A stretch of DNA of 64,000 bases, taken from Streptomyces xanthophaeus (GTDB lineage: Bacteria; Actinomycetota; Actinomycetes; Streptomycetales; Streptomycetaceae). The stretch lies in NCBI RefSeq assembly GCF_000725805.1, contig NZ_JOFT01000010.1, positions 1 through 64,000 of the forward strand, read 5' to 3'. Below, piece after piece: positions 20,052 through 42,197 of the stretch. Under the pieces are notes generated by a model, which made no database searches, was not told where the DNA came from, and saw nothing but the letters and a program-made list of their open reading frames with translations. The position numbers and the translations under genes were made by a program. The first letter of the stretch is position 1. Every line of letters begins with the position of its first letter.

Positions 20052-21251
20052 ATGGGATCGGCCGATCTCATCGACCCGACTCTTTACAGCGACGGCGACA
20101 CGCACGAGATATGGCGCCGGATGCGCCAGGTCGACGGTCTCAGCTGGCACCAGGTGGACGAGGAACGCGGTTTCTGGTCCGTCGTGAAGTACGCCGACAC
20201 GGACCTGGTCCTGCGCGACACCGACACCTTCACCTCCGAGCGGGGCACCCTCCTCGACCTGCTCGGCACCGACGACCCGGCCGGCGGGCAGCAGCTCGCC
20301 GTCACGGACCCGCCGCGGCACACCGAGCGGCAGGCGCGCCTGAAGAAGGCACTGGCCGTCAAGGCCGTGGACCGCCAGCGCGAGATGATCCGGCCCAAGG
20401 TCATCGACCTGCTCGCCCCGCTCGGTGACGGCGGAGCCTTCGACTTCGGCACCGCCATGCTGGGGCTGCCGATGTCGGTCACCGGCACGATGATGGGCCT
20501 GCCGGAGGAGGACTGGGCCTGGCTCAGCCGCCTGACCACTGTGTGCATCGCCGCCGACGACCCCGAGTTCCAGGACGAGGGCGGCAAGGAGGCCACGCTC
20601 AAGTCGGCCCACCGGGAGCTCTTCGGGTACTTCCAGGACCTCATGCGCCACCGCCGGGAGAACCTCGGCGACGACCTGCTGAGCGTGCTGATCTCCACGC
20701 GCTTCGAGGGCCGGCTCATGTCCGCGAGCGAGATCGTCGCGAACTGCTACAGCCTGCTCCTCGGGGCCAACGTCACCACGCCGCACGCGCCGACGTTCGT
20801 GATGGCCGAATTCACGGAGACCGATGTGCTCGCCGACTGGGCGGCCCATCCCGAGGTCAACGGCACCGCCTACGAGGAGGCGCTGCGCTGGGCCTCTCCG
20901 GTCAACCACATTCTGCGCTATGCCACCCGGGACACCGAGGTGCGCGGTACGAAGATCGCCGCGGGAGATGCGGTCGTGGCCTGGCTGGGCGCGGCGAACC
21001 GCGACGAAGAGGTATTCGAGAACAGCCACACCTTCGACATCCGGCGGAAGCCCAACAAGCACCTGGCCTTCGGAATCGGACCGCACTACTGCGTGGGCCA
21101 CAGCGTCGCCCGCGTCACCATCAGCATTCTTTTCGAGGAGCTGCTGGGCCGTTACGAGGATTTCCAGCTGGCGGGCAAGCCCGAGCGGCTGATCTCGAAT
21201 TTCGCATCCGGCTACAAGCACGTGCCGATCACGGCGCGCCTGCGCAAGTAG
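20052..21251 (+). CDS. Cytochrome P450 (first cluster P450)
   Basis: A P450 monooxygenase of about 399 residues, first gene of the synthetase operon. The heme segment is FGIGPHYCVGHSVAR (Cys about 347), the K-helix E-x-x-R is EALR, and the I-helix reads LLLGANVTTPHAP, with the Thr pair of the oxygen-activation groove but without the usual A/G-G-x-D/E-T-T acid. Such P450s in NRPS clusters often hydroxylate carrier-bound amino acids. The ATG at 20052 has no ribosome site. The reading frame continues 14 codons upstream with protein-like sequence (ISIHDTRTSGCPVD) to an in-frame TGA. AAAGGA lies seven bases before an ATC at 20010, so the true start may be that non-standard codon. Confidence 0.93.
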   Translation: MGSADLIDPTLYSDGDTHEIWRRMRQVDGLSWHQVDEERGFWSVVKYADTDLVLRDTDTFTSERGTLLDLLGTDDPAGGQQLAVTDPPRHTERQARLKKALAVKAVDRQREMIRPKVIDLLAPLGDGGAFDFGTAMLGLPMSVTGTMMGLPEEDWAWLSRLTTVCIAADDPEFQDEGGKEATLKSAHRELFGYFQDLMRHRRENLGDDLLSVLISTRFEGRLMSASEIVANCYSLLLGANVTTPHAPTFVMAEFTETDVLADWAAHPEVNGTAYEEALRWASPVNHILRYATRDTEVRGTKIAAGDAVVAWLGAANRDEEVFENSHTFDIRRKPNKHLAFGIGPHYCVGHSVARVTISILFEELLGRYEDFQLAGKPERLISNFASGYKHVPITARLRK

Positions 21252-21260
21252 GGATGCCGC

Positions 21261-22940: not shown

Positions 22941-23005
22941 CCCGGCCGCGGCCCGCCCGCCGCGGGCCGCTGCCACCTTCCCGTCCCTCTTTGGAGAAGT
23001 GACCA

Positions 23006-26000: not shown

Positions 26001-26434
26001 AACTGCGCGACCTGCTGTCGGGCACGCTGCCCGCCTACATGGTGCCGACGCTGTGGACGGTCGTCGACAGCATCCCGCTGACCCCGAACGGGAAGGTCGA
26101 CCGCAAGGCCCTCGCCGCGGTCGCCGGACCCGCCGGACCCTCCGCCCCCGCCGCCACCGAGGCCGCGCGGTCGGCGGCCGACGACGCACTGGCCCGCATC
26201 GCGGCGCTCTTCACGGAGGCCATCGCCCGGACCGGCAGCCGCTCGGACGCCGAGGCGCAGGAGATCGGCGCCGACAGCGACTTCTTCGTCAGCGGCGGCA
26301 CCTCCCTGGGCGCGGTGCAGCTGATCCGGCTGGTCAAGGACCGGCTGGGCGTGACCCTCAGGCTGCGCGACCTCCTGCTGACGCCGACCCCGGCCGGAGT
26401 GCTGCTGCTCGTGGACAAGGCGCAGAACAAGTGA
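23006..26434 (+). CDS. NRPS T-C-A-T module
   Basis: A 1142-residue synthetase. Domains in order: carrier (Ser32 in LGGDSLRAL), condensation (about 90-510, HHMVLDGWS about 221), adenylation (about 545-1050, with FTSGSTGEPKG, NGYGPTENT, YRTGDVVR and GKVDRKAL) and a second carrier (Ser about 1100 in GGTSLGAVQL). By alignment with GrsA the specificity residues read D-A-L-W-L-G-G-T-F-K, two conservative changes from the classical valine code D-A-F-W-I-G-G-T-F-K, so valine or a related aliphatic residue is likely. GGAGAAG precedes the ATG. The last codon overlaps a GTG of the PKS frame. Confidence 0.95.
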   Translation: MTLDDLASAVLGTDADSTGFGTRSFIELGGDSLRALRLDAMAKEQLGLKLSVKDLLGAEPLAAALLRAEALPADGSAPAAPAAPAGQDPNGLSHTQRGMWLIESITGGSPYNLVFTAFTVQGELDPEAFRAAVCATVARNEGLRTVFAEGADGVVREIRAEHTPEISEFTHDGAPEDFEAHVRLTTERESRRPFDLTAAPALRFLRFSHPAGRHAVVLIAHHMVLDGWSVGLVLKEVFARYEELTGGVPTAFGPGVPLSALIRSQDGQHAAGLWDEQAGFWAGHLAGTPTVLELPADRQRPPVQDAAGARTPLDLGPAVSTAVTERARDLGITPFALLLGAFGLTLGRTTGARSLLVGVPLLGRGSAELEGLVGVAGNLVPVRIDIDDDASAADYLRSVQRSLTLSIDAGQLPFEELVARLGLERSIGCHPLVQVCFGMHDQLVPQRLTAGSVDLRIEEGHGGGAQFDLTLLVGQAQPSLAGHVEYATAVWNEAEADGFVADFRAAAEQLAAGPALLLEEVRCLSDARRARLDALNEVREEFPVTSMDELFREAVRRTPDAVAVREGGVELTYAQLALAAAEQARLLAEAGVRPGDTVLVGVERSVAEAVAVLGIVTAGAAYVGVDLSLPAAHTRLIVAKAAPAAALVGPGAAGHEGLSGVPLAPVWDASWNPTAGDDLQLPKADPARQAYVAFTSGSTGEPKGVSIPHRAVIRLVHEAGYVRTGPGERMLRLSPLAFDASTLELWGALLTGATLEVYPASSLPSPSELGAFLLEREVTVAWLTAGLFRLVEEFAPDSFGKLKQLLTGGDVVPHDHTARALARHPGLVVTNGYGPTENTTFTTTHTVRGPQEVDGPLPIGTPVPGTRVYVLDERGRRVPPGAVGELYTGGEGLADGYAGDEAESARRFGHFSADVQERLYRTGDVVRLDTRGRLAYLGRSDDQVKLRGYRIELTAISDALKAHPQVKDSVVVVTGDNSAEKRLVAAVVPQPGAAPGTGELRDLLSGTLPAYMVPTLWTVVDSIPLTPNGKVDRKALAAVAGPAGPSAPAATEAARSAADDALARIAALFTEAIARTGSRSDAEAQEIGADSDFFVSGGTSLGAVQLIRLVKDRLGVTLRLRDLLLTPTPAGVLLLVDKAQNK

Positions 26435-26466
26435 CCGGCCAGGCGACGCAGGAGGAGGCGGTGTAC

Positions 26467-29400
26467 ATGGACACGGACACGGACACGGACCCGGACACGG
26501 ACCCGGACACGGATTCAGGGACCGACGCGGGCGCGGACGCCGACCTGAGCCGGGCGATAGCCGTCGTGGGCATGGCGTGCCGGTACCCCGGTGCGGCCGA
26601 CGTGGGCGCCTTCTGGGACATGCTGCGCGGCGGCGTCGAGGGCATCACCCGCTTCGACGTCGAGGACCTCGTCGCGCAGGGCGCGGACCCGGACCTCGTA
26701 CGCCGTCCCGAGTTCGTACCGGTCAAGGGGGTCCTGGAGGGCTCCCGGAACTTCGACTGGCAGTTCTTCCGCTACAACCGCGCCGACGCGGGCCACATCG
26801 ATCCGCAGCAGAGGGTCTTCCTCGAATGCGCCTCGACCGCCATCGACGACGCGGGCATAGACCCCGGCCGCTTCCCCGGGCGGATCGGCGTCTACGCCGG
26901 TTCCGACCGGACCCTGCTGGACTCCGCGGACGACATGAGCCCCCTGGTCCGGGTCGTCAGCCACGAGAAGGACTTCGTCGCGACGCGCGTGTCGTACAAG
27001 CTCGGCCTGCGCGGACCGGCGGTCACTGTACAGACGGCCTGCTCCACCTCGCTCACCGCCATCCACATGGCGGCGCAGGCGCTGCGCGGCGGCGAATGCG
27101 ACGCCGCGCTCGCGGGCGGCGTCGCCGTGTCGCCGCCCGGCGAGTGGGGCTACGTCCACGAGCAGGGCAGCATCCTGTCGCCCGACGGCCACTGCCGTCC
27201 CTTCGACGCGAAGGCCGCCGGCACCATCCCCAGCGAGGGCGTCGGCGTCGTCGTCCTCAAGCGCCTCGGGGACGCCCTGCGCGACGGCGACCGGATCGCG
27301 GCCGTCATCCGCGGCTCGGCTCTCAACAACGACGGCTCCGACAAGCTCGGTTTCACCGCTCCGTCCATCCCCGGGCAGAGCGAGGTGATCCGGTACGCGC
27401 ACCAGGTCTCCGAGGTCTCCCCGCAGGAGATCCACTACGTCGAGTGCCACGGCACCGCGACCCCGATGGGCGACCCGGTGGAGGTGGCGGCGCTAGCTGA
27501 GGCCTTCGGCCCCGCCGCCGAGGACGCCACCACCTGGCTGGGCGCGGTCAAGAGCAACATCGGCCACACCAGTGCGGCCGCGGGCGTGGCGGGCTTCATC
27601 AAGACCGTGCTGATGCTCGAACACCGCGAGCTGGTCCCCACCCTCCACTTCACCAGCCCCAACCCCCTGCTGGACCTGGACGACTCGCCGTTCCAGGTGT
27701 GCACCGAGACCCGGCCGTGGCCCGCGGGCGGCACACCCACGGCCGCGGTCAGCGCCTTCGGCGTCGGCGGCACCAACGCCCACGTCGTCCTGCAGGCCGC
27801 ACCCGTGCGGGAGCGTCCGCAGGCCGCGACCGGGCCGCGTGTCCTCACGCTGTCCGCGGCCTCGCCCGAGGCGCTCGGCCGCCTCCGCGAGGACGTGGCC
27901 GGCCGCCTGGAGGCGGCCGACGCGCCCGCGCTCGACGAGGCCGTCCGCACGCTCGCCGACCGGCGCGGCTTCCGCCACCGCCAGGCCTTCGTCGTGCAGG
28001 ACCGGGCCCAGGCGGCGCAGCTGCTGCGCGACGCGCCGCGGCCGCCCGCCCCCGGAGCCCTGTCCCAGGTCGCCTTCCTCTTCCCCGGCCACGGGGTGCT
28101 GCGGCACGCCGCGGGCGCCGCGGCCCACCGGCTGCTGCCCGAGTTCCGCGCGCACTTCGACGAGATCGGGGCGTTCGTCCGCGACACCTACGCGGTGGAC
28201 CTCTCGCCCGTGGTCACCGGCAGCGAGGTGCCGGCCGGCTGGTACGAGGACTGGGCCCACCAGCAGGTCGGCCTCTTCGCCCTCGGCTACGCGCTGGGCC
28301 GCCAGCTCCACGAGTGGGGGCTCAAGCCCGCCGCCCTGTTCGGCAACAGCGTCGGCGAGTACGCGGCCGCCGCCCTCGCCGGGGTGTGGTCCCCGACGGA
28401 CGCGGCAGCCCTGGTCTACGAGCGGGCGCAGGGCCTGCGCGCCACCGAGCCGGGCCGGATGCTCGCCGTCAACGCACCGCTGGACGAGGTGGCCCGCCGG
28501 GTCCCGCTGGACGGCAGGGTGGCCGTGTCCATGGTCAGCCGCGGCGGCGTGGTGCTCTCGGGTCCCGCCCGGGAGATGGCGGAGCTGCTGGAGGGCGACG
28601 CCCTGGGGGGCCTCGACCTGCGCCCGCTCAACGTGGACCGGGCCGCGCACTGCGACATCCAGGCCCCCGTGGCGGACCGGCTCACGCAACTGATCGGCGC
28701 CACGCACACCCAACTGCCCGCACTGCGCCTCGTATCCAACGTCACCGGTGACTGGGCCGACCCGGCGGCCGTGTGCGGCCCCGAGTACTGGGCGGCGCAG
28801 GTACGCCGGCCCGTGCAGCTGGACGACGGCATGAAGACCCTGCTCGGCTCGGACTGCGACACCTTCATCGAGCTCGGCCCGGGCAGCACGATGCTCGGCG
28901 CCCTGCGCTTCCGCGGGGAATGGGACCCGGCGTACGCGAGCGTGCCGATGCTCGGCAGGCCCGAGGACGGGGACCGCGGGCTGCTGCGGGCCCTGGGGAC
29001 GCTGTGGGAGCGCGGCCTCGACGTCGTCGAGGAGGCGTTCGCGGAGCCGGGGGAGCGGCCGCTGCGCTGCTCCCTGCCCGGGCACCCCTTCGCCGCCCGG
29101 GACCCGCAGGCCGAAACGCCCCGGCCGGTGCAGAAGGCGGCGCGCGGCGGGTCCGCGGACGGCGGGCAGGCACCGCTGCGCACCCAGGTGGAGCAGCTGT
29201 GGTGCCGGGCCCTCGGAGTGCCCTCCGCGTCCCCGGCCGACGACTTCTTCGCCCTCGGCGGCGAATCGCTGATGGTGCTGAACCTGGTGACCCAGCTGCG
29301 GGAGAAGGCCGCAGTCGCGGTCTCGGCGGCCGAGTTCCTGCGCGAGGCCACCTTCGGGCACCTGCTGGAGCTGGCCGAGCAGCAGTACGCCGCCGGTCCG

Positions 29401-30216
29401 GCGACGGCCGCGGGCCCCGGCCCCGGCTCCGCGGCCGGGCCGGGCGGATCCGTCGTCCTGCGCGAGGGCACCGGCAGGCCGCTGTTCCTGGTGGCCGACG
29501 CCGCCGAGTCCTCGCTCAGCTACCGGGCCCTGGCCGCGCACCTGGACACGCCCCGCCCGGTCCACGGCCTCGAACCAAGGATCGCGAACTCCTCGCGGAT
29601 GTCGGTCGAGGACGTCGCCGCGCACCACGTGGCGGCGATGCAGCGGGCCCAGCCCGCCGGGCCCTACACCGTCGGCGGCTGGTCCTTCGGCGCCGTCGTG
29701 GCGCACGAGATGGCCCTCCAGCTCGCCGCCCGCGGCGAGAGCGTCGACCTGCTGGTGTGCCTCGACGCGTACGTGCCGGGCCGGGCGGGCCGCACCATCG
29801 GCTCCGACCCCGGCTTCGTCCTGGGCCACCTGCGCCTCATGGCGAGCGCGGCCCTCGGCCTCGGCCAGGTCGGCGCGCAGGCCCGGCGCAACCCCGCCCT
29901 GCGCGGGCTCCTGGCGGACAAGTTCCGGGTGCTCGCCCGGTACCGGCCGCGCCCGGTCGACTGCCCCGCCGTGGTGCTCAAGGTGGAGGTGGACCGGCGG
30001 GAGGCGGAGCTGCTGCGCCGCAGCGTCAGCGGCCTGTACACGGGCGCATTGACGGTCCGTCCGGTCGGCGGCGACCACTGGTCGATGCTGCGCGAGCCGT
30101 ACGTGGAAGAGCTCGCGGCGCGCCTCGTCGAGGCTCTCCCCGAGGACGGCGCTACGGCGGACGCCGCGACGGCGGACGCCGCGACGGCGGACGGAGCCCG
30201 TCATGACGCACGATGA
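26467..30216 (+). CDS. Type I PKS module KS-AT-ACP-TE
   Basis: A 1249-residue polyketide synthase. KS (about residues 25-445) has the nucleophile Cys about 192 in TACSTS and the His motifs HGTAT and NIGH. AT (about 530-850) has the nucleophile in GNSVGEY (Ser about 628) instead of GHSxGE, and RAAH where HAFH or YASH is usual, so extender choice is uncertain. ACP Ser is about 934 in LGGESLMVL. The TE (about 990-1240) has GGWSFG (Ser about 1073) and a final GGDHWSML His. There is no ketoreductase, so a beta-keto product is expected before release. The ATG at 26467 has GGAGGAGG at ideal spacing; an in-frame GTG at 26431 overlaps the NRPS stop and is the alternative. The N-terminus is a D-T/D-P repeat. 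Confidence 0.93.
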   Translation: MDTDTDTDPDTDPDTDSGTDAGADADLSRAIAVVGMACRYPGAADVGAFWDMLRGGVEGITRFDVEDLVAQGADPDLVRRPEFVPVKGVLEGSRNFDWQFFRYNRADAGHIDPQQRVFLECASTAIDDAGIDPGRFPGRIGVYAGSDRTLLDSADDMSPLVRVVSHEKDFVATRVSYKLGLRGPAVTVQTACSTSLTAIHMAAQALRGGECDAALAGGVAVSPPGEWGYVHEQGSILSPDGHCRPFDAKAAGTIPSEGVGVVVLKRLGDALRDGDRIAAVIRGSALNNDGSDKLGFTAPSIPGQSEVIRYAHQVSEVSPQEIHYVECHGTATPMGDPVEVAALAEAFGPAAEDATTWLGAVKSNIGHTSAAAGVAGFIKTVLMLEHRELVPTLHFTSPNPLLDLDDSPFQVCTETRPWPAGGTPTAAVSAFGVGGTNAHVVLQAAPVRERPQAATGPRVLTLSAASPEALGRLREDVAGRLEAADAPALDEAVRTLADRRGFRHRQAFVVQDRAQAAQLLRDAPRPPAPGALSQVAFLFPGHGVLRHAAGAAAHRLLPEFRAHFDEIGAFVRDTYAVDLSPVVTGSEVPAGWYEDWAHQQVGLFALGYALGRQLHEWGLKPAALFGNSVGEYAAAALAGVWSPTDAAALVYERAQGLRATEPGRMLAVNAPLDEVARRVPLDGRVAVSMVSRGGVVLSGPAREMAELLEGDALGGLDLRPLNVDRAAHCDIQAPVADRLTQLIGATHTQLPALRLVSNVTGDWADPAAVCGPEYWAAQVRRPVQLDDGMKTLLGSDCDTFIELGPGSTMLGALRFRGEWDPAYASVPMLGRPEDGDRGLLRALGTLWERGLDVVEEAFAEPGERPLRCSLPGHPFAARDPQAETPRPVQKAARGGSADGGQAPLRTQVEQLWCRALGVPSASPADDFFALGGESLMVLNLVTQLREKAAVAVSAAEFLREATFGHLLELAEQQYAAGPATAAGPGPGSAAGPGGSVVLREGTGRPLFLVADAAESSLSYRALAAHLDTPRPVHGLEPRIANSSRMSVEDVAAHHVAAMQRAQPAGPYTVGGWSFGAVVAHEMALQLAARGESVDLLVCLDAYVPGRAGRTIGSDPGFVLGHLRLMASAALGLGQVGAQARRNPALRGLLADKFRVLARYRPRPVDCPAVVLKVEVDRREAELLRRSVSGLYTGALTVRPVGGDHWSMLREPYVEELAARLVEALPEDGATADAATADAATADGARHDAR

Positions 30217-31474
30217 CGCGCAGGGCGGGACCAAGACCCTCGCACCGGAACCGGCTCCGGCCGAGCGGACCTCGCTCCTGCGCAACCGGTCCTTCCAGTC
30301 GCTGTGGAGCAGCGAGGCCTTCGCCGGGGTCGGCGAGAACGCGGCCGGCATCGCCTACCCGCTGCTGGTCCTGGCCACGACGGGCTCGGCGGCCTACGCC
30401 GGCGCCGTCGGCTCCGCGCAGCTGCTCGCGAACGGCCTGATGTCGTTCTGGGGCGGCATCCTCGCGGACCGGGTGGACCGCAAGCGGCTGCTCATCGGCT
30501 GCAACGCGGTCAGGGCCACGCTGCTCGGGCTGTTCGCCGTACTGATCTTCTCGGGGCCGGTGAACGTGTTCGTCACGTTCGTCGTCGCCATCGTCTCCGC
30601 CTGCTGCCACGGCCTGTCGATGCCCGCGGGCATGGCCATGATCAAGCAGCTGGTCCGCCCGGACCAGCTGGCCCAGGCCACCGCGCAGAACCAGATCCGC
30701 TGGTTCGGCGCGATCACGGCCGGCCCCTCCATCGGCGGCGTGCTCTACGGGTTCGCCCGGGCGCTGCCCTTCCTCGGCGCGTGCGTCTCCTTCGTGCTCT
30801 CCACGGTCTTGATGCTGTTCGTCAGGGGCACCCCGCGGCCGGAGGCCCCCACCGACGGGAAGAAGGGCCTGTTCGAGGGGTTCCTGTACCTGACGCGGGA
30901 CCCCGTACTGCGCCCCCTGATGATCAGCATCACCCTGTCCAACCTGGCCTTCAACACGGTCGGGATGTCGCTGGCGGTCATCGCCACCGGCAAGGACCGG
31001 GGCGCGTCGGACTCCTTCATCGGGCTGACGCTGTCGGTGGCCGGCACCGGCGCCCTGGTGGGTGCGCTGCTGGCGGCGCAGGTCATCAAGCGGGTCCGCC
31101 CGTCGACGATCTTCATCGCCGGCTACTGGATCGGCCCGGTGGCGGCCGCCTTGCTGATGACGGTCCCCGGGGTCATCCCGCTCGGCATCGTCGTCGCCTG
31201 TGTGTACATCCGCGGGCCGCTGATCAACGCACTGTTCCTCACGTACGCGGCCAAGACCGTTCCCGACGAGCTCCAGGGCCGTGTCCTGGGAGCCATCGTC
31301 TTCACCTCCACGATCATCTCGCCGATCGGCGTCCTCGCGATCGGCACGATCTTCGATGCCTGGGGCCCCACCTGGGTGTTCGCCGTCGTGGGCGTCATCG
31401 CGACGCTCGCGGCCCTGCCGACCCTGAGCCGGAGCATCCGGACGTTGGCCTCGCTCGACGAGGCGTCCCCGTGA
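30203..31474 (+). CDS. MFS transporter of the cluster (DHA3-like)
   Basis: A 423-residue membrane protein with 10-12 hydrophobic segments. The loop after helix 2 reads GGILADRVDRKRLLIG, the MFS signature, and a large central cytoplasmic loop contains FEGFLYLTRDPVLRPL, as in the DHA3/enterobactin-exporter type. It probably exports the cluster product or protects the producer. Its ATG overlaps the last 14 bases of the PKS gene, so translation is coupled. Confidence 0.93.
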   Translation: MTHDDAQGGTKTLAPEPAPAERTSLLRNRSFQSLWSSEAFAGVGENAAGIAYPLLVLATTGSAAYAGAVGSAQLLANGLMSFWGGILADRVDRKRLLIGCNAVRATLLGLFAVLIFSGPVNVFVTFVVAIVSACCHGLSMPAGMAMIKQLVRPDQLAQATAQNQIRWFGAITAGPSIGGVLYGFARALPFLGACVSFVLSTVLMLFVRGTPRPEAPTDGKKGLFEGFLYLTRDPVLRPLMISITLSNLAFNTVGMSLAVIATGKDRGASDSFIGLTLSVAGTGALVGALLAAQVIKRVRPSTIFIAGYWIGPVAAALLMTVPGVIPLGIVVACVYIRGPLINALFLTYAAKTVPDELQGRVLGAIVFTSTIISPIGVLAIGTIFDAWGPTWVFAVVGVIATLAALPTLSRSIRTLASLDEASP

Positions 31475-31494
31475 ACGACAGCAAAGGAATCACC

Positions 31495-32826
31495 ATGACC
31501 CAGGACATCGTCGAAGCCGCCCCGGCCACCGCCGCGGAGCAGCAGCCCCAGCAGCCGCCGCTGCCGCCGGAGTTCTTCACGCACCCGCTGGAGGACCGCA
31601 ACGCGCAGTACGCGAACCTGCGGCAGAGCTGCCCGGTCCGCGCCATCAACCACCCGCCGGGCGCCGAGGCCTACATCGTCTCCGACTACGAGATGGCGCT
31701 GAAGGCCTTCGGCGACCCCCGCATCTCCAAGTCGCTGGAGAACACCCCCAAGTGGTTCCGCGACCAGCTGTACGACAACAGCCCCGTGCAGTCCCGCAAC
31801 ATGCTCATCGCCGACGCCCCCGAGCACTCGCGGCTGCGCAAGCTGGTCAGCAAGTCCTTCGTGCCCCGCCGCATGGAGAACCTGCGCCCGCGGATCCAGG
31901 AGATCGCCGACGACCTCATCGACGCCTTCCCCGAGTCGGGCGAGGTCGACCTGATGGAGTTCGCCCGGGTCCTCCCCGTCATGGTGATCTTCGAGTACCT
32001 GCGGGTGGACGTCGCGGACCGCGAGATGCTCTACGAGTGGTCGCACGTCCTCGGCGGCGCCCCGTACGCCGACGAGGAAGGCAACGCCCGTCTCAAGCAG
32101 GTCAGTTCGGCCTTCGAGAAGTACATCCTCGACCTGCTGGCGGACCGCCGCTCCGACCTGGGCGAAGACCTCGTGAGCCAGCTGCTGGTCGCGGCCGAGG
32201 AAGAGGACAAGTTCACCATCGACGAGATCGCCTCGACGATGTCCCTGGTGATCATCGCCGGGCAGCGGACCACCACCAACCTCATCGGCAACGGCACCCA
32301 CGCGCTGCTCACCCACCGCGACCAGTTCGACCTGCTGAAGTCCCGCCCCGAGCTGGTGGTGTCGGCCGTCGAGGAGTTCCTGCGCTTCGAGTCCCCGAGC
32401 TACCGGGGCACCCTGCGCGTCGCCGCCCAGGACATGGAGATCGAGGGCACCGAGATCGGCAAGGAAGCCTTCGTCCACCTGCTGATCGCCGCCGCCAACC
32501 GCGACCCGAAGGTCTTCCAGGACCCGGACCGCCTCGACATCACCCGCGAGTCGAACCGCCACCTCACCTTCGGCCACGGCGCCCACTACTGCCCGGGAGC
32601 CCCGCTCTCCCGCCTGGAGGGGCACGTGGTCTTCCCGACCCTGCTGCGCCGCCTGTCGGGCCTGAGCCTGGCCGTCCCGGAGGCGGACACCGAGTGGGTG
32701 TACGACAACTCGGTCAGCCGCGGCCTCGCCTCGCTGCCCGTGCGGTACGAGCGCAAGCTGCCGCGCGACACCGGCGCCGGCGCCCCCGCCGCGTCGGGCT
32801 GCCCCGTGGCCCACGGGAGCGTGTGA
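31495..32826 (+). CDS. Cytochrome P450 (second cluster P450)
   Basis: A 443-residue P450 of the CYP105/CYP107-like bacterial class. The I-helix is LVIIAGQRTTTN (Gln-Arg replacing the usual acid pair), the E-x-x-R is EEFLRF and the heme segment is FGHGAHYCPGAPLSR (Cys about 366). The N-terminus is Ala/Gln/Pro-rich. AAAGGA precedes the ATG at 31495; an in-frame GTG at 31471 overlapping the MFS stop is possible. Two P450s in one operon suggest two oxidation steps, one perhaps on a carrier-bound residue and one after release. Confidence 0.95.
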   Translation: MTQDIVEAAPATAAEQQPQQPPLPPEFFTHPLEDRNAQYANLRQSCPVRAINHPPGAEAYIVSDYEMALKAFGDPRISKSLENTPKWFRDQLYDNSPVQSRNMLIADAPEHSRLRKLVSKSFVPRRMENLRPRIQEIADDLIDAFPESGEVDLMEFARVLPVMVIFEYLRVDVADREMLYEWSHVLGGAPYADEEGNARLKQVSSAFEKYILDLLADRRSDLGEDLVSQLLVAAEEEDKFTIDEIASTMSLVIIAGQRTTTNLIGNGTHALLTHRDQFDLLKSRPELVVSAVEEFLRFESPSYRGTLRVAAQDMEIEGTEIGKEAFVHLLIAAANRDPKVFQDPDRLDITRESNRHLTFGHGAHYCPGAPLSRLEGHVVFPTLLRRLSGLSLAVPEADTEWVYDNSVSRGLASLPVRYERKLPRDTGAGAPAASGCPVAHGSV

Positions 32827-32830
32827 CCCG

Positions 32831-33844
32831 ATGAAGATGCTCGTACTCGGCGGGACCGCCTTCCTGTCGCACGCCGTCGCCGCCGAAGGGGTGCGGCGCG
32901 GCCACGAAGTCCTCTGCGCGGCCCGCGGCACCTCCGGCAAGGTCCCCGAGGGCGCCACCCTCGTCACGGTGGACCGAGACGCCCCGGACGGCCTCGCCCC
33001 GCTGGCCGGCACCCGCTTCGACGCGGTCGTGGACGTCGCCACCATGTCCTACCCGTGGGTGCGCGACGCGCTCGCCGCCCTCGGCGCCCGGGCCGGCCAC
33101 TGGACCTTCGTGTCCTCCATCAACGTCTACGCCGACGCGGTCACCACCGGGCAGGACGAGGACGCCCCGCTGCACGAGCCCGCCACGAGCGGCGCCGACG
33201 CCGAGGAGCGGATCAAGCACCCCCACCTGTACGGCGGCATCAAGGTGGCCAGTGAGAACGCCGTCCGCGAGGCCGTGGGCGACCGCGCCCTCATCGTGCG
33301 CTCCGGCCTGATCGTGGGACCCGGGGACGTCTCGGACCGGTTCGGCTACTGGCCCGCGCGGATCTCGCAGGGCGGCCGGGTCGTCGTACCGGACACCCTG
33401 GAACAGCCCGTGCAGTACGTCGACGTCCGCGACATGGCCGCCTGGATCGTCGACGCGGGTGAGCAGGGCACCAGCGGCACCTACAACGGCGTCGGCGCGA
33501 CCCGCCCGCTCGGCGAACTGCTGGCCGACGTCGTGGAGGCCGTGGGCCCGCCGGACACCGAGCTGGTCCCGGTGCCCGTCGCGCAACTGGAGGCGGCCGG
33601 GGTCCAGGTGTGGCGCGGGGAGAAGTCCCTGCCCGTGTGGGTACCCCCGGAGGACTACGGATTCATGGCGCACGACCACTCCCGGGCCCTCGGCGCGGGC
33701 CTGCGCCACCGCCCCCTGGCGGAGGTCGCCGCCGACGTCCTCGCCCACGAACGCGCCCTGGGGCTGGACCGCGAGCGCAAGGCCGGACTCACCGCGGCCG
33801 AGGAAACGGAACTTCTGCAGGCGCTGAAGGAGGACCTCCGATGA
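32831..33844 (+). CDS. NAD(P)-dependent epimerase/reductase (extended SDR)
   Basis: A 337-residue Rossmann protein. The N-terminal dinucleotide motif is LGGTAFLSHAV, with VDRD after strand 2. The active Ser/Tyr/Lys set appears as FVSSINVY and the YGGIK tetrad. QYVDVRDMAAWI resembles the C-terminal signature of isoflavone-reductase-like and epimerase proteins. It starts four bases after the P450 stop and ends with an ATGA overlap with the next gene. In the pathway it could reduce a keto group left by the PKS or act on the amino-acid precursor; the substrate is not deducible. Confidence 0.88.
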   Translation: MKMLVLGGTAFLSHAVAAEGVRRGHEVLCAARGTSGKVPEGATLVTVDRDAPDGLAPLAGTRFDAVVDVATMSYPWVRDALAALGARAGHWTFVSSINVYADAVTTGQDEDAPLHEPATSGADAEERIKHPHLYGGIKVASENAVREAVGDRALIVRSGLIVGPGDVSDRFGYWPARISQGGRVVVPDTLEQPVQYVDVRDMAAWIVDAGEQGTSGTYNGVGATRPLGELLADVVEAVGPPDTELVPVPVAQLEAAGVQVWRGEKSLPVWVPPEDYGFMAHDHSRALGAGLRHRPLAEVAADVLAHERALGLDRERKAGLTAAEETELLQALKEDLR

Positions 33845-34634
33845 GCACCGGCTCCTGGCGGCGGATCAGCGAGGGCGACCGCGCCCGCACGGTCCTCGCC
33901 GTCGACTTCGACTCGACCGCACGCCCCGAGGCGGGCTTCCGCCGCCTCGCACCCCTGCTGCCGCCGGGCCGGGAGATATGGCTGACCGGCCAGCCCGACG
34001 AGGCGGAGAAGGAACTCCTCGACGCCGAGGGCTACCTGGGCCGGTGGCGGCAGCTGCCCGGGGGCCCCGGCGGGCACGTGGACACCGTCATGGGCTACTG
34101 CGTGGGCGGCGTCTTCGCCGCGGCGCTCGCCGACGAGATCGCCCGGCAGCAGGGCAGCCGCCCGGCGCTGCTGCTCTTCGACCCGGAGCCGGTCGAGGAG
34201 ATGAGCCTGTACCGCGACCTGACGAAGGCCGTCGGGGCGATGTCGGTGCTGTCCGAGGAGGAGCGCGCGGGCTACGTCACCGAGGCGCTGACCGTCTGCG
34301 GGACGGCGGGCGGCGACTTCCGCGCGACGGCCCTCCAGGTCGTCAAGCTCTACGAGAGCGCCGCGGGCCTGGCCTTCGACCGGCTGGGGCTGGACGAGGA
34401 GACCGCCGACGACCTCATGGGGATGTTCCGCTCGTACGTGTCCTACCTGTGCGGGGCCCAGGAGCTGAGCCCCGAGGCGGGCTGGGCCACGGCCGTCGCG
34501 CTGACCTCCCGGGGGTCCAGCCCGGGCGCCCCGCTCGCCCGCCGCGAGCAGACCTTCCCCCTCGGCACCGAGGGACTGCTGGACGACCAGGACGTGGCCG
34601 AAGCCGTGCACCGCTTCCTCGAGGAGCGCGGCGC

Positions 34635-34638
<4 letters not shown>
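33841..34638 (+). CDS. Thioesterase-like alpha/beta hydrolase with Cys in the nucleophile elbow
   Basis: A 265-residue protein. The segment VMGYCVGGVFAAALADEI aligns with the nucleophile elbow of NRPS thioesterases, but with Cys in place of Ser (G-Y-C-V-G), as in dienelactone hydrolases. It is followed by a thioesterase-like LLLFDPEPV strand. The residues after that form a helical lid. I cannot find a convincing catalytic His near the C-terminus, so it may be an unusual acyltransferase, cyclase or inactive scaffold. The ATG overlaps the SDR stop, and its own stop overlaps the next synthetase gene, so it is fully embedded in the operon. Confidence 0.75.
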
Positions 34639-37046
<2,408 letters not shown>

Positions 37047-37152
37047 GTCCTGCTCGAACCCTCCGGACGGGTGCGGGGCGCGACCCGCCCCCGCCCGTCC
37101 GGAACCCCTCGGAACACGCACACACATGGCCATGGGAACGGAGAGTCGGACA

Positions 37153-38436
37153 ATGCGGACACTGAAGGTAGCGCTGCTGGGGTGCGGAGTGGTGGGCAGC
37201 GACGTCGCCCGGTACATGGCGACCCACGCGGCCGACCTCGAGGCACGCATCGGCGCCCCGGTCGAACTCGCCGGGATCGCCGTGCGCCGGGCCGATCTGC
37301 CCCGCCCCGGCATCCCCGAGCACCTGCTCACCACCGACGCGGACGCCCTGGTCACGCGGCCGGACGTCGACGTGGTCGTCGAGGTCATCGGCGGCACCGA
37401 CCGCGCCCGCGACCTGATCACCACCGCCTTCGGGCACGGGGCCTCCGTGGTCAGCGCCAACAAGGCGCTGATCGCCGCCGAGGGCGAGCACCTGCACGCC
37501 GCCGCTGCCTCGCACGGCGTCGACCTGTACTACGAGGCCGCCGTCGCGGGCGCCATCCCGCTGCTGCGGCCGCTGCGCGAGTCCCTGGCCGGGGACCGCG
37601 TCAACCGGGTCCTCGGCATCGTCAACGGCACCACCAACTTCGTCCTCGACAAGATGGACTCCGCCGGAGCCGACTACCCCCAGGCGCTCAAGGAGGCGAC
37701 CGCCCTCGGCTACGCGGAGGCCGATCCCACCGCCGACGTCGAGGGCCACGACGCCGCGGCCAAGGCCGCGATCCTCGCCGGGATCGCCTTCAACACCCGC
37801 GTGTGCCTGGACGACGTGCACCGCGAGGGCATCACCGCCGTCACCGCGGCCGACATCGCCGCCGCCAAAGCCATGGGCTGCGTGGTCAAACTCCTCGCCA
37901 TCTGCGACCGCGGCGCCGACGGCGCCTCCGTCTCCGTCCGCGTCCACCCGGCGATGATCCCGCTCGACCACCCGCTGGCCGCCGTGCGCGGCGCGTACAA
38001 CGCCGTCTTCGTCGAGGCCGACGCCGCGGGCCGGCTGATGTTCTACGGCGCCGGCGCGGGCGGTGCGCCCACCGCCAGTTCGGTCCTCGGCGACCTCGTC
38101 GCGGTCTGCCGCAACAAGCTGGCGGGCGTCACCGGGCCCGGGGCCGCCGCGTACGCCCGGCTGGCCGTGAGCCCCATGGCGGACGTCGTCACCCGCTATC
38201 ACCTCGCCGTCGACGTGGAGGACGGCCCGGGAGTCCTCGCCGAGGTGGCCGGAGTCCTCGGCGAACACGGCGTGTCCGTCGAGCACTTCCACCAGGAACG
38301 CCGCGACGGCGGCTGCCGGCTGGCCATGTCCACGCACCCGTCCACGGACGCCGCCCTGTCCGCGGCGGTGGCCGCCCTGCGCGCATCGGCCCGGGTCCAC
38401 GGCGTGACCGGCATCATCCGCATCGAAGGACGCTGA
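37153..38436 (+). CDS. hom: Homoserine dehydrogenase within the NRPS-PKS cluster
   Basis: A 427-residue enzyme that reduces aspartate semialdehyde to homoserine with NAD(P)H. The N-terminal Rossmann motif is LLGCGVVGSDVARY; then VEVIGG, SANKALIA, EAAVAGAIPLL, GIVNGTTNFVLDKM and the active segment YAEADPTADVEGHDAA are visible. A C-terminal ACT domain (GPGVLAEVAGVLGEHGVSVE) suggests feedback control by threonine. The ATG at 37153 is chosen over 37126 because GGAGAG lies seven bases before it. It is 100 bases after the A-T gene and before an MFS gene. Primary hom genes usually sit beside thrC and thrB, so this copy is probably dedicated to precursor supply or self-resistance. Confidence 0.95.
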   Translation: MRTLKVALLGCGVVGSDVARYMATHAADLEARIGAPVELAGIAVRRADLPRPGIPEHLLTTDADALVTRPDVDVVVEVIGGTDRARDLITTAFGHGASVVSANKALIAAEGEHLHAAAASHGVDLYYEAAVAGAIPLLRPLRESLAGDRVNRVLGIVNGTTNFVLDKMDSAGADYPQALKEATALGYAEADPTADVEGHDAAAKAAILAGIAFNTRVCLDDVHREGITAVTAADIAAAKAMGCVVKLLAICDRGADGASVSVRVHPAMIPLDHPLAAVRGAYNAVFVEADAAGRLMFYGAGAGGAPTASSVLGDLVAVCRNKLAGVTGPGAAAYARLAVSPMADVVTRYHLAVDVEDGPGVLAEVAGVLGEHGVSVEHFHQERRDGGCRLAMSTHPSTDAALSAAVAALRASARVHGVTGIIRIEGR

Positions 38437-38469
38437 GCCTCCCCGAGGGGAAGCGGAAGGGAGTCCAGC

Positions 38470-39741
38470 GTGACCAGCAAGCCCCCCGTGCCCGTGCCCC
38501 TTCCGCTGCGGCGGGTGTGGGCCGCCTCGGGCGTGTCGTCCTTCGGTGACGGCCTCTGCCTGAGCGCCCTGCCGCTGCTGGCCGTCGGGCTGACCCGCGA
38601 CCCGTTCCTGCTCTCCCTCGTCACGGCCGCCGCCTTCCTGCCCTGGCTGCTGTTCGGCCTCTTCGGCGACGCCCTCGTCGGCCGCCGGGACCACCGCCGC
38701 ACCCTGTGGGTGACGGACGCGGCGCGCGCCGCCCTGTTGCTCGCGGCGGCCGGCTGCGCCGCGACGGGGCGGATCGGCATCCCGCTCCTGGCCGGGCTGG
38801 CGTTCCTGCTCGGCGCCGGGCAGATCCTGTCCCGCACCACGCTCTCGGCCTGGCTGCCCGAGCTCCTCGGCGGGGACGCGCAGCTGACGCGGCGGGCCGA
38901 GATGCGGCTGCGCGGGGCCGGCGACGTCACCCACGGCCTCGCCGGACTCCCGGCCGGTGCGGCCCTGTTCACCCTGGGGCGGGCGCTGCCGCTGGTCGCC
39001 GACGCCCTGGCGCTGCTGTGCGGCGCGCTGCTGGTCCGCTCGCTGCCGCCGGGTCCGCCCCGGGCCCGCACGCCCAGGGGGCCGGGGCTGCGGGAGGCCC
39101 GGGAGGGCGCCGCGTACCTCGTGCGCGATCCGCTGCTGCTGGGCCTGGCGCTGCGGCCCGCGCTCGGCAACCTCGCCCTCGCCGCCGGTACGGCGGTCCT
39201 CGTGCTCTTCGCCCAGGAGGAACTCGGCCTGGGGCCGGTGGGGTTCGGCGTCCTGCTCGCGGTCGAGGCGGCCGGCGGCCTCCTCGGCGGCGTGCTGTCG
39301 GCCTGGATCACCGAGCGGATCGGCCCCGGCGGCGCACTGGCCCTGACGGCGGCCCTGCTCACCCTGGCCCAGGTGGGCCTCGGCCTCTCCGCGCACCCGG
39401 CGGCGGCGGGCGCCGCCCTGGCGCTGCGCGCGGCCGCGATCGGTGCGGCGATGGTGCCGGCCGCCGCGGTGCGCGAGTGCGCCGTGCCGGCCGCGCTGGC
39501 GGACCGGGTCACGGCGGCGAGCCGCCTGCTGGCCGTGGCCGCCGCGCCGCTGGGGGCGCTCCTCGGCGGCTGGCTGGCCGTCACGGCCGGGCTGCGGGCC
39601 CCGTACCTGATCGGCGCGGTGTTCCTGGCGGCCGCTACGGTCATCAGCCTGACGACGACCACCAACGGGAAGGTCGGCGCGGCCCGGGCCAGGGCCCGCG
39701 GTGCCCGCGGCCCGTCCCCGGAGCCGGTCCCGGCCTACTGA
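38470..39741 (+). CDS. MFS transporter, second of the cluster
   Basis: A 423-residue membrane protein with about 11-12 hydrophobic segments. The loop after helix 2 reads GDALVGRRDHRRTLW, and a central charged loop (GPGLREAREGAAYLVRDPLLLGL) is of the same type as the first cluster transporter. The GTG start has GGAAGGGAG upstream. It lies 33 bases after the homoserine dehydrogenase gene and is the last gene of the main operon. Drug export or resistance is the likely role. The C-terminus is Ala/Arg/Pro-rich. Confidence 0.9.
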   Translation: MTSKPPVPVPLPLRRVWAASGVSSFGDGLCLSALPLLAVGLTRDPFLLSLVTAAAFLPWLLFGLFGDALVGRRDHRRTLWVTDAARAALLLAAAGCAATGRIGIPLLAGLAFLLGAGQILSRTTLSAWLPELLGGDAQLTRRAEMRLRGAGDVTHGLAGLPAGAALFTLGRALPLVADALALLCGALLVRSLPPGPPRARTPRGPGLREAREGAAYLVRDPLLLGLALRPALGNLALAAGTAVLVLFAQEELGLGPVGFGVLLAVEAAGGLLGGVLSAWITERIGPGGALALTAALLTLAQVGLGLSAHPAAAGAALALRAAAIGAAMVPAAAVRECAVPAALADRVTAASRLLAVAAAPLGALLGGWLAVTAGLRAPYLIGAVFLAAATVISLTTTTNGKVGAARARARGARGPSPEPVPAY

Positions 39742-39847: not shown

Positions 39848-40471
39848 TCACAGGAGCAGGTCGCGCTGCGCGGCGAGGTAGCCGGCCTGGAAGCGGCTGC
39901 GCGCGTCGAGGGAGTCCATCAGCCGGGACACCACCCGCCGGTAGGTGCGCAGGGCCATGCCGATCTGGCGGGCGGCCGTCTCGTCGGTGGTGCCGAGTGC
40001 CAGTTGGCGCAGCACCTCGCGGGAGAGCGGGTGGAAGTCCGCGTCGGGCGCCGGTGCGGGGTCCTGTGCGGCCGGTGCGGGCGCCGTCAGGGAACGGACC
40101 AGCATCTGGGTGACGATCAGTTCGCGGCCGATGAGGGCCCCGTGGCTGTAGTCCTCCTGGTTGCGGGCGAGGACGACGACGGAGCGGTCGACGATGGCCA
40201 TGCGCGGGGTGGTGTCCGGCGTCGAGTGGATCTGCATGCCCTCCTTGGCGAGGGCGGCGAGCCGGTGCTCCGGCAGTGCGCTCGTACCGCGGGCCGTCGA
40301 GGGGACGTACACCCGCACGCTCACCCCGGAGCCGGCGGTCAGCCGCTGTGCCGCCGCGACGTCGACCTGGCCGTCGAAGGAACAGTTGGCCGGAAGGGCG
40401 AGGAGCACCTCGGAGCGTGCGCTCTGGATCGCGTGGCGGATCTGCGGCGCACCGGCGATGTTGATCTGCAT
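39848..40471 (-). CDS. LuxR-type helix-turn-helix regulator
   Basis: A 207-residue regulator. The N-terminal part (MQINIAGAPQIRHAIQSARSEVLLALPA) resembles the phospholipase-D-like or TrmB-like ligand domain found in many Streptomyces LuxR proteins, in a shortened form. The C-terminal 60 residues form a GerE-type helix-turn-helix (LSREVLRQLALGTTDETAARQIGMALRTYRRVVSRLM), in which the usual first helix is slightly changed. GGAGGAG precedes the ATG. It lies at the right border of the NRPS-PKS cluster, divergent from the small peptide gene and sharing with it an upstream region filled with CTTGYCAA-type repeats, so it may be under control of the XRE-TPR protein. Confidence 0.85.
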   Translation of the reverse strand: MQINIAGAPQIRHAIQSARSEVLLALPANCSFDGQVDVAAAQRLTAGSGVSVRVYVPSTARGTSALPEHRLAALAKEGMQIHSTPDTTPRMAIVDRSVVVLARNQEDYSHGALIGRELIVTQMLVRSLTAPAPAAQDPAPAPDADFHPLSREVLRQLALGTTDETAARQIGMALRTYRRVVSRLMDSLDARSRFQAGYLAAQRDLLL

Positions 40472-40520
40472 GTCCCGCTCCTCCGGTCCTCCGGTTGGTT
40501 GCGCTCCAGACCCTAGAGAG

Positions 40521-40562
40521 ACTTGCCGAAGCTTGTCAATTACTTGCCAAGACCTTGTCAAT
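40521..40562 (+). promoter_or_regulatory. Four phased CTTGYCRA repeats upstream of the peptide gene
   Basis: Four direct copies of a 10-base element start at 40521 (ACTTGCCGAA), 40531 (GCTTGTCAAT), 40542 (ACTTGCCAAG) and 40553 (CCTTGTCAAT). The spacing of 10, 11 and 11 bases puts them on the same face of the helix. They lie between the divergent LuxR-type gene and the small peptide gene. Inverted copies recur before the XRE-TPR gene. Binding by the XRE-TPR regulator is inferred. Confidence 0.7.
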
Positions 40563-40656
40563 CGAAGTGCCTGCGTGGTTGAGTGTCGACATGCCACGGG
40601 GCGGGAAGCGGCCGAGATCACGGCGGTGGCGCGAGAAGATCCAAGGGGAGAGAACT

Positions 40657-40809
40657 GTGAAGCTGTTCGTCAAATTCGTACCTGTTCTGGTGGGAATGTT
40701 CCTGGCCGTCGCCCTCGGGACGGGTGCCGACTGGGCCCCGTCCATCAGTGGGGACAAGGGCTCCGTTTCCGTCGTGGCGGGCACCCTGAACGAGATCGGC
40801 TGGCCCTGA
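40657..40809 (+). CDS. Small exported peptide, candidate signalling precursor
   Basis: A 50-residue product starting at a GTG with GGGGAG six bases upstream. Residues 1-22 (MKLFVKFVPVLVGMFLAVAL) form a Lys-flanked hydrophobic export segment. The remaining 28 residues are polar, with a C-terminus GDKGSVSVVAGTLNEIGWP that contains no Cys. The gene lies directly upstream of, and on the same strand as, an XRE-TPR regulator, the same layout as peptide pheromone/receptor pairs of the RRNPP type in Firmicutes. The frame has GC-rich third positions. A short secreted peptide of other function is the alternative. Confidence 0.65.
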   Translation: MKLFVKFVPVLVGMFLAVALGTGADWAPSISGDKGSVSVVAGTLNEIGWP

Positions 40810-40844
40810 TTCCCCCGGACCGGGCCTGATGGGGCACTTGGTCT

Positions 40845-40894
40845 GGACAAGGCAAATGCAATGTATGGCAAGTTTTAACGTCGAATTGACAAGT
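40845..40894 (-). promoter_or_regulatory. Three inverted TGRCAAGT repeats upstream of the XRE-TPR gene
   Basis: Copies of the same element in opposite orientation occur with their CAAG cores at 40848, 40869 and 40890, exactly 21 bases apart (two helical turns). Sequences are GGACAAGG, TGGCAAGT and TGACAAGT. They cover the promoter region of the XRE-TPR gene and lie after the peptide stop codon. Confidence 0.7.
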
Positions 40895-40922
40895 CTGTCG
40901 AATGAAGGGCAGCCTGGTACGT

Positions 40923-42197
40923 ATGCCAGGTCGTGTGCGTCGCATCCCGGAACAGCCGATGTTCGGTCGTCGGCTGCGTGAACTGAGGGTCGCCCGAGGT
41001 CTGTCGCAGGCCGAGCTCGTGGGCACCGACATCTCGGCCGCCTACCTCTCCAGGCTGGAATCGGGGGCCCGCCCCCCGACGGAACGGGTGCTGTCCCTGC
41101 TGTGCGACCGGCTCGGGGTCTCCCCGTCGGAGTTCCTCGCCCCCGTCAGCAGCCCGCTGGCCCAGGCGCTCGCCACCGTCGCCACCGTCGGTGACTCACC
41201 GCAGACGGCCGTGATCCTGGAGGACGCCCTGCGGCGTGACAGCGAGGGCGACGTCGTCCTGCGCTGGCAGGTGCTGTGGCTGCTCGCCCGCTGCTACCAG
41301 GTGCAAGGGCGCGCGGACGACGAGCTGCGGGCGCTGCGCGACCTCGTCGCGCTCAGCGACGAGATCGACCTGCCCGACATCCAGGCGCGCTCGCAGGTAC
41401 GGCTCGCCCGCAAGCTGCGCGGCTCCGGCGAACTGGCCGACGCCCGCGTCGCCGCGGGCCGCGGCCTCGAACTGGCGACGGAGTACAAACTGTCGTTCCG
41501 TGACGTCGTCGAGGCGACGCTCACCCTCATCTCGATCGATGCGGAAACGGGTCAGCTGGCCGACGCGCGCAGGCGCGCCGACCAGCTGACCCGTTCCCTC
41601 TCCGAGGGCGCCGAAGGCCCCCTCGCCGACATGATCTCCACGCGCCTCCAGGTGGAGGTGCTGTGGACCGCCGCCGGTGTGGCCGTGCGCCAGGGCGACC
41701 GCGCGGGCACCGCGGAACTGCTCCAGCAGGCGCTGCGGAGCATGCCCAGCAACGAGGACCCGGTGCTGTGGATGCGGCTGAGGCTCGCCGCCGCGTCGAT
41801 GTACCTGCAGATGGACCCGCGGGACACCGCCGGGGCCCGGCGGTGCCTGGACGAGGCCGCCTCGGCCGCGACGCTGGTCGGGATGCCCCTGCACCAGCTG
41901 GAGGTCCTGCTCCTGCAGTGCCAGCTCGCCTTCCACGAAGGCCGTTTCGACGACGCCCGGGCCCTCAGCGACCGCCTCGGGGAGCGGCCCGAGGGCATGG
42001 GCAGGCGCGACCAGGTCGCGCTGGAGATCCTGCGCAACCAGATGGCCATCGTCGCCGGGGACCGGGCCGCGGCGCAGGGCGCCATGGAACGCATCGCCAA
42101 GGAGGCGCGCGAGTCCGGGAACGTCGAGGTCGCCGCCGAGGCGTGGCGCGCCCTCGCCGAGTCCCTGGCCGTGGCGAACGGCGTCACCCGCGGCTGA
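40923..42197 (+). CDS. XRE-family regulator with TPR-like domain, candidate peptide receptor
   Basis: A 424-residue regulator. Residues about 13-67 are an XRE helix-turn-helix (FGRRLRELRVARGLSQAEL, then ISAAYLSRLESGARPPTERVLSLLCDRL). The remaining 350 residues are all helical, with paired-helix periodicity (LLARCYQVQGRADDELRALRDLV, ARVAAGRGLELATEYK, AGVAVRQGDRAGTAELLQQAL, QLAFHEGRFDDARAL), typical of tetratricopeptide repeats. This is the architecture of PlcR- and Rgg-like peptide receptors and of several Streptomyces pleiotropic regulators. An in-frame ATG at 40902 is the alternative start; 40923 is preferred for the GAAGGG before it. Confidence 0.88.
   Translation: MPGRVRRIPEQPMFGRRLRELRVARGLSQAELVGTDISAAYLSRLESGARPPTERVLSLLCDRLGVSPSEFLAPVSSPLAQALATVATVGDSPQTAVILEDALRRDSEGDVVLRWQVLWLLARCYQVQGRADDELRALRDLVALSDEIDLPDIQARSQVRLARKLRGSGELADARVAAGRGLELATEYKLSFRDVVEATLTLISIDAETGQLADARRRADQLTRSLSEGAEGPLADMISTRLQVEVLWTAAGVAVRQGDRAGTAELLQQALRSMPSNEDPVLWMRLRLAAASMYLQMDPRDTAGARRCLDEAASAATLVGMPLHQLEVLLLQCQLAFHEGRFDDARALSDRLGERPEGMGRRDQVALEILRNQMAIVAGDRAAAQGAMERIAKEARESGNVEVAAEAWRALAESLAVANGVTRG

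Follow-up and report, generated by a model that had tools for sequence, protein, structure and literature searches.

A 64,000-nucleotide stretch of Streptomyces xanthophaeus DNA (contig NZ_JOFT01000010.1, positions 1 to 64,000; hereafter the window) carries, at the end of a cluster of P450, nonribosomal peptide synthetase (NRPS) and polyketide synthase (PKS) genes, a candidate peptide pheromone gene, the gene of an XRE-type regulator with tetratricopeptide repeats (TPR) that may be its receptor, and a divergently transcribed regulator gene. The peptide gene (40657..40809, plus strand) starts at GTG 40657, preceded by GGGGAGAG, and has its stop at 40809; the 50-residue product consists of a signal-like N-terminus, a spacer and a C-terminal NEIGWP, the export segment being visible from hydropathy and from a conserved signal core. 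The receptor gene (40923..42197, plus strand) encodes a protein of 424 amino acids with matches to HTH_31, HTH_3 and TPR_MalT. Although its open reading frame (ORF) is open from 40902, the ATG at 40923 is the more likely start, judged by the 424-residue length of protein P0001 and by the promoter geometry. The original prediction, made from the letters of this stretch, had described a 50-residue exported-type peptide gene directly before an XRE-TPR regulator, and the sequence and its ORFs bear this out.

The window peptide had no Pfam match and no NCBIfam match above cut-off. When seven peptides of the family described below were compared with NCBIfam (E up to 1), the only match was that of the window peptide, which was below threshold at E 0.17. 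A search of about 5.8 billion proteins with the window peptide returned seven entries at E up to 10, four with named sources (three from S. xanthophaeus and one from Streptomyces sp. cmx-4-9) and three without a source, which may come from strains very near the window's own. When six of the seven entries were aligned with the window peptide, the signal core PVLVG.FLAVALG and the terminal EIGWP were invariant in all seven sequences, and residues 22-39 drifted. Lack of conservation of the peptide frame in relatives had been named beforehand as an outcome that would speak against the pair; in this alignment with homologues the frame was conserved.

Arrays of a short repeat occupy both intergenic regions. 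Array A (40522..40561, plus strand), between the divergent regulator gene and the peptide gene, contains four TTGNCAA-type sites, three of them exact, as direct copies starting at 40522, 40532, 40543 and 40554, that is, with the spacings of 10, 11 and 11 that had been predicted for four direct CTTGYCRA copies before the peptide gene. Array B (40844..40893, minus strand) lies before the receptor gene and comprises three sites, at 40844-40851 (TGGACAAG), 40865-40872 (ATGGCAAG) and 40886-40893 (TTGACAAG). The spacing of exactly 21 bp claimed for these inverted copies was confirmed, but they are not the identical element, as the last copy alone matches exactly and each of the others carries one mismatch. 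CTTGYCRA itself was enriched in the window, with 14 occurrences against 4.2 expected and a maximum of 9 in any of 100 shuffles; its family-wide form, however, is the palindromic heptamer TTGNCAA rather than the octamer first proposed. The lone heptamer was not enriched in the window (4 versus 2.45 expected, a number reached in 23 of 100 shuffles), whereas the tandem form with a 4-bp spacer was (2 versus 0.15 expected, 1 of 100 shuffles), indicating that the clustering is the signal.

Candidate promoters overlap these arrays. That of the divergent regulator gene (40510..40539, minus strand; TTGACA, 18 bp, TAGGGT) has its -35 box inside array A and an additional site within the -35/-10 spacer, as in the related loci L154 and L155, where a PEP-mutase gene has the same geometry. 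The candidate peptide-gene promoter (40555..40584, plus strand; TTGTCA, 18 bp and a weak -10 box, TTGAGT) uses the last site of array A as its -35 box. The candidate receptor-gene promoter (40886..40915, plus strand; TTGACA, 18 bp and a weak -10 box, CAGCCT) lies just before ATG 40923, and a transcript starting from it would be leaderless; the related locus L038 shows a similar TTGACA and GCAGCCTGGT.

At E up to 1e-12 the receptor had matches in 87 of 392 Streptomyces genomes, which include the window's own and in which distant XRE-TPR genes were matched as well; at 1e-30 it had them in 15 of 100 relatives. Of 394 genomes sampled from the class, 11 gave a match at 1e-25, one of the 11 belonging to another family. 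The three draws overlap. We fetched 80 regions, best matches first plus some distant ones, which together with L038 and the window gave 86 XRE-TPR genes. Their scores place 73 of these in the receptor family and mark the other 13 as distant. A short ORF ending exactly in [ILV][GDE]WP was present within 1.7 kb upstream of 40 of the 73 family genes and none of the 13 distant genes, and under a looser rule (at most 10 residues past the motif, or at least two copies) the numbers were 50 of 73 and again none of 13. In 33 of 44 exact ORF-gene pairs found anywhere in the loci, an ORF being counted twice where a locus holds two receptor genes, the stop fell within the nearest 500-bp bin on the upstream side of the receptor gene. 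The tetrapeptide cores in the family were IDWP, IGWP, IEWP, VEWP, VDWP, LDWP and ISWP. Some precursors carry several copies, for example four of DIGWP in L058 and three of IDWP in L046, and others a single one. In all 18 multi-copy precursors, some of which come from closely related loci, every copy within a precursor had the same tetrapeptide, the tetrapeptide differed between loci and third codon positions varied, which points to a functional unit of 4-5 residues under selection at the protein level.

The peptide gene lies on the strand opposite to the receptor gene in 32 of the 50 family loci with a recognised precursor. If the peptide ORF were a regulatory upstream ORF exerting translation-coupled control of the receptor gene, its position in the window, on the same strand and directly before that gene, would be accounted for; the prevalence of the opposite orientation, and the fact that the encoded C-terminus is the conserved part, with synonymous variation, make this explanation highly improbable. 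A hydrophobic export segment was present in 31 of the 50 precursors. Motif-bearing precursors without one include those of L044, L052, L059, L064, L049, L066, L069, L079, L084 and L090, some being only 19-23 residues long. In addition, L048, L065 and L066 each contain two xWP precursors, a short non-exported one of the DDDIGWP type and an exported multi-copy one, whose core is IDWP in L048 and L066 and IGWP in L065. Exported small ORFs sought beside the 13 distant XRE-TPR genes and in L040 and L045 yielded one candidate only, in L119, a divergent 49-residue exported-looking ORF that ends in GTGCC, 234 bp upstream of its XRE-TPR neighbour, one of the distant genes. In the genome of the window itself, a distant XRE-TPR paralogue (L116, G000:C2:30730-39941) is found near a PLD-HTH paralogue, with no xWP peptide, and may possibly represent a sister system with a different signal.

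These precursors could alternatively encode a secreted antimicrobial or a ribosomally synthesized and post-translationally modified peptide (RiPP), the XRE-TPR gene being a local regulator. Such products would fit the signal sequences, the tandem core repeats of the 18 precursors and the biosynthetic surroundings. Among these are ATP-grasp ligase genes, which belong to a class with some peptide-modifying members and recur beside certain loci (5 of the 10 neighbours scanned), as well as a LanB-type fragment close to L038 and a TldD-type gene close to L154. The family has, however, no one modifying enzyme as a constant companion, the commonest neighbour cluster (28 loci) being a mixture of A-domain and ATP-grasp proteins. 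With a conserved unit of only 4-5 residues, precursors as short as 19-23 residues and 19 of 50 lacking a signal, we regard a RiPP or antimicrobial as quite unlikely.

De novo word counts upstream of the 73 family genes revealed TTGNCAA in 52 (6.1 expected) and CTTGGCAA in 35 (1.0 expected), and several of the other strong words were codons of IDWP. As controls, TTGNCAA was found in the downstream region of 9 of the 73 genes and at 3 of the 13 distant genes. The recurrence of the pair together with its repeats across Streptomyces, which the original prediction had put forward as a check, is thus upheld by the C-terminal motif at 40 and the heptamer at 52 of the 73 genes. Phased TTGNCAA pairs occurred upstream of 32 of the 73 genes, versus 3 of 73 in the control region. 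Among 52 spacings of 7-50 bp between neighbouring exact sites, 31 were of 10 or 11 bp, 4 of 20-22 bp and 8 of 31-34 bp. We also measured the distance from site ends to TA[GC]NNT for 288 oriented sites, both strands being read, in the 73 family regions and four distal arrays, and found peaks at 16-17 bp (34), 27-28 bp (24) and 39 bp (9), other distances having 0-4 sites; these peaks are not independent, as copies of one array feed successive peaks, and the weak -10 boxes of the window peptide and receptor genes are not counted by this motif. The peaks suggest that the promoter-proximal copy usually serves as the -35 box, with further copies phased upstream along the same helical face. In 12 of 14 rows of one receptor clade and in L148, TTGNCAA was absent, and a TGGCAAA half-site was present in 10 of these 13 regions (0.3 expected).

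In the 8.62-Mb genome of the window, the exact tandem array was found at the window locus only. Exact arrays were present in 17 of 25 chosen receptor-bearing genomes, and of the 24 arrays that remained after merging matches by hand, 13 lay no more than 700 bp upstream of a receptor gene, 7 shared a contig with one at a distance of up to 30 kb, and 4 were elsewhere. In 25 genomes without a receptor match there were 7 arrays, four of them one identical sequence, and a reversed-pattern control occurred 3 times in each set of 25 genomes. This distribution argues that the array belongs with the receptor. Five genomes (G010, G012, G023, G044 and G173), four of them without a receptor match, share an identical TTGCCAAGTTTTGGCAA site, which is probably an unrelated conserved site. 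Six regions with distal arrays were read, Pfam being applied to L154 and L157, and L155 and L156 resembling L154 by sequence. Specifically, two- or four-copy TTGNCAA arrays in G295 (L154:2998-3036), G020 (L155:2651-2689) and G127 (L156:2716-2733) are flanked by a PEP-mutase gene and a TauD gene, some 11.6 kb away from the receptor gene, and are likely direct targets in a phosphonate-type cluster; in G091 the distal array separates a WelO5-like oxygenase gene from ATP-grasp ligase genes. What appears to be the same operator therefore precedes biosynthetic genes in some relatives.

The heptamer arrays might instead be operators of a Streptomyces antibiotic regulatory protein (SARP), which, rather than the XRE-TPR protein, would drive the regulator and peptide genes, the pair being merely its target. 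On its minus strand, array A reads TTGACAAG, TTGGCAAG, TTGACAAG and TCGGCAAG at 10-11 bp, that is, direct heptamer repeats about 11 bp apart near a -35 box, as expected of a SARP operator, and the divergent promoter, with a copy between its -35 and -10 boxes, has a SARP-like geometry. PimR is reported to bind three CGGCAAG heptamers with 4-bp spacers and a doublet of 10-bp units (PMC5930380), and this resemblance counts against assigning the arrays to the XRE-TPR protein. However, none of the 12 matches to the BTAD (SARP-type) domain in the genome is on the window's 240-kb contig C6, the BTAD model being not specific to SARPs, as it also matched in 6 of 14 control genomes, and a SARP-like neighbour cluster, identified by reading rather than by a Pfam scan, occurred at only 6 family loci. 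The motif instead tracks the XRE-TPR family, in which the YLSRLESG segment of the helix-turn-helix (HTH), corresponding to the recognition helix, is at least 90% conserved, as expected if the HTH of the family reads one common site. We therefore consider control by a SARP unlikely and take the XRE-TPR protein as the probable ligand of the arrays.

The AlphaFold2 model of the regulator had a mean pLDDT of 92.9. Rap, NprR, AimR and PlcR were among the best structural matches in Foldseek and VIA, and the protein models as a Rap/NprR/AimR-like TPR superhelix, in which conserved W and R residues sit mostly on every second TPR helix. In a comparison of the receptor profile with PDB chains, ComR and PlcR were reached mainly via the HTH, alongside phage and C-protein repressors.

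The divergent regulator gene (39848..40471, minus strand) is the likely output gene of the pair. Its product has a weak PLD/TrmB-like match, below the Pfam threshold, and a C-terminal HTH (hence PLD-HTH). It had been called a LuxR-type cluster regulator with the repeats upstream; the repeats are indeed there, but the label is weak, since GerE is matched only below the Pfam cut-off and beside a PLD/TrmB-like domain. The PLD-HTH gene is kept divergently beside peptide and receptor genes in L038 (62%) and L041 (58%). When 14 window proteins were compared with about 9 kb of each of these loci, only PLD-HTH and the receptor matched, the other neighbours being thioesterase and phosphopantetheinyl transferase genes in L038 and a thioesterase gene in L041, so that PLD-HTH, peptide and receptor appear to be a core module carried by varying surroundings. 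In the window, the presumed output cluster (20052..39741, plus strand) encodes P450, C-PCP, C-A-PCP, KS-AT-ACP-TE, MFS, epimerase, A-PCP, homoserine dehydrogenase and MFS proteins. In ten loci of the IEWP clade (L072, L075, L079, L082, L084, L086, L087, L090, L094 and L100), a PAS-LuxR-like gene lies upstream instead, and a condensation-like and a sigma-factor-like gene are each found in nine of these loci as well, all these names being read from sequence. A neighbour cluster at 28 loci, labelled NRPS, was rejected as a single-linkage mix, as 10 of its 41 members scanned gave 5 AMP-binding and 5 ATP-grasp proteins. A strict NRPS motif test was positive at 5 of the 71 loci of the family, at 2 of the 10 regions fetched later and at none of the 11 distant loci. 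We therefore do not claim NRPS linkage for the whole family.

Taken together, the data support the RRNPP-like pheromone-receptor reading first proposed for this locus, in that the peptide frame is conserved and the same C-terminal motif stands beside the same receptor family with the same operator. We put at roughly 80% the probability that the module is a cluster-situated, RRNPP-like peptide quorum-sensing system that regulates itself and acts on the neighbouring regulator and probably on the NRPS-PKS cluster. By analogy with the known systems, we infer secretion, processing, import, binding and output as follows. The short precursor would be exported via its N-terminal signal and trimmed to its C-terminus, with the core IGWP and probably as EIGWP or NEIGWP; the accumulating peptide would be re-imported by an oligopeptide permease and dock in the concave groove of the TPR domain. 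The regulator would occupy the phased TTGNCAA arrays at the -35 regions of the peptide gene, its own gene and the divergent PLD-HTH gene, and the peptide-bound form would switch these three promoters on, giving a feedback loop and more PLD-HTH regulator, which probably controls the NRPS-PKS cluster. Any link to cell density is likewise drawn by analogy. In both readings of the sign the peptide would turn the module on. Activation, as by SARPs, is favoured by arrays that lie mostly upstream of the -35 box in fixed phase on one helical face, and relief of repression by the near-consensus -35 boxes inside the operator, which the sites cover; we lean only slightly towards activation. An M6-type metalloprotease gene (42263-43537), convergent with the receptor gene, encodes a possible but unsupported processing protease, for which the surroundings of the L038, L040 and L041 receptor genes gave no match.

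The sequences themselves show that the genes are paired, that the signal core and the C-terminus are conserved, and that there is a family-wide motif and an operator of defined geometry. Several observations nevertheless weigh against the proposed system. No peptide was recognised within 1.7 kb upstream of 23 of the 73 receptor genes, including that of L040, the second closest locus fetched, although two of the 23 (L058 and L065) have a recognised peptide elsewhere in the locus. Among 11 receptor genes fetched later, there were two clear precursors, one doubtful and eight without any (two at contig edges); the clear ones, with three DISWP and two DIEWP copies, are sisters of the already-seen L042 and L067, and TTGNCAA was upstream of only 4 of the 11. 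In addition, 19 of the 50 recognised precursors have no obvious hydrophobic export segment, and 8 of the 25 receptor-bearing genomes have no exact tandem array. The TPR fold is common to many TPR proteins unrelated to pheromones, LGN being at the top of the Foldseek list and APPBP2 of the VIA list. Covariation between receptor and peptide residues followed the tree and showed nothing; leads from receptor residues 299 and 366 (431-residue numbering) to the residue before WP were dropped, as they seem to mirror the tree.

An extensive survey of RRNPP systems describes the type for Firmicutes, with Actinobacteria typically using enzyme-made small molecules (PMC10075063). An older review mentions cyclic or modified peptide signals in Actinobacteria and, in a table, lists "TPR" with the quorum-sensing proteins predicted for Streptomyces and further genera, the sole Actinobacterial hint that we met (PMC4748050). 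Among the matches listed for the open-licence PMC literature none described this peptide family or a Streptomyces pair of linear peptide and TPR receptor, which is weak evidence of absence; the family is apparently undescribed so far. On a broader scale, we think it likely, though with somewhat less confidence than for the window itself, that Streptomyces has a genus-wide peptide language, in which diversified XRE-TPR receptors, many with a WP-ending tetrapeptide, act through TTGNCAA arrays at -35 boxes on regulators and biosynthetic operons (NRPS-PKS, ATP-grasp peptide ligase and phosphonate-type). If so, this would be, as far as our searches went, the first RRNPP-like system described in Actinobacteria, and it would provide testable peptide-signal candidates for a genus whose oligopeptide permease carries a developmental signal (PMC5650626). 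Linear-peptide control of natural-product clusters would become accessible in Streptomyces, with a chemically simple handle on silent clusters, since the peptides proposed as inducers, of four to six unmodified residues, can be purchased and added to cultures.

Known systems resemble the module in different respects. The gamma-butyrolactone signal is an enzyme-made small molecule, and its receptor is TetR-like, whereas the window system would use a ribosomal peptide and an XRE-TPR protein. The gamma-butyrolactone receptors (ArpA/ScbR) would share with it a cell-to-cell signal governing Streptomyces secondary metabolism (PMC4748050). SARP operators such as that of PimR have similar direct heptamer repeats at 10-11 bp, with CGGCAAG/TGGCAAG-like sequences (PMC5930380), but the window contig has no BTAD match and the motif tracks the XRE-TPR family. 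BldK of S. coelicolor is a precedent for an oligopeptide permease importing an extracellular signal in Streptomyces (PMC5650626), such a permease being here a candidate importer only. The closest likeness, one of features rather than of demonstrated descent, is to the RRNPP(A) systems of Firmicutes (Rap-Phr, Rgg-SHP/ComRS, NprR-NprX, PlcR-PapR and AimR), in which the precursor gene likewise adjoins that of an HTH-TPR regulator. As in those systems, with the exception of Rap, the Streptomyces receptor has an N-terminal XRE-type HTH and a C-terminal TPR superhelix, and a signal sequence and a short conserved C-terminal or repeated peptide are found in an otherwise variable precursor. Unlike them, the Streptomyces family is actinobacterial, its core is a tetrapeptide ending in W-P that is often tandem or internal, several of its precursors are without a signal sequence, its receptor and peptide genes are mostly divergent, and its operators are helically phased TTGNCAA arrays at the -35 box.
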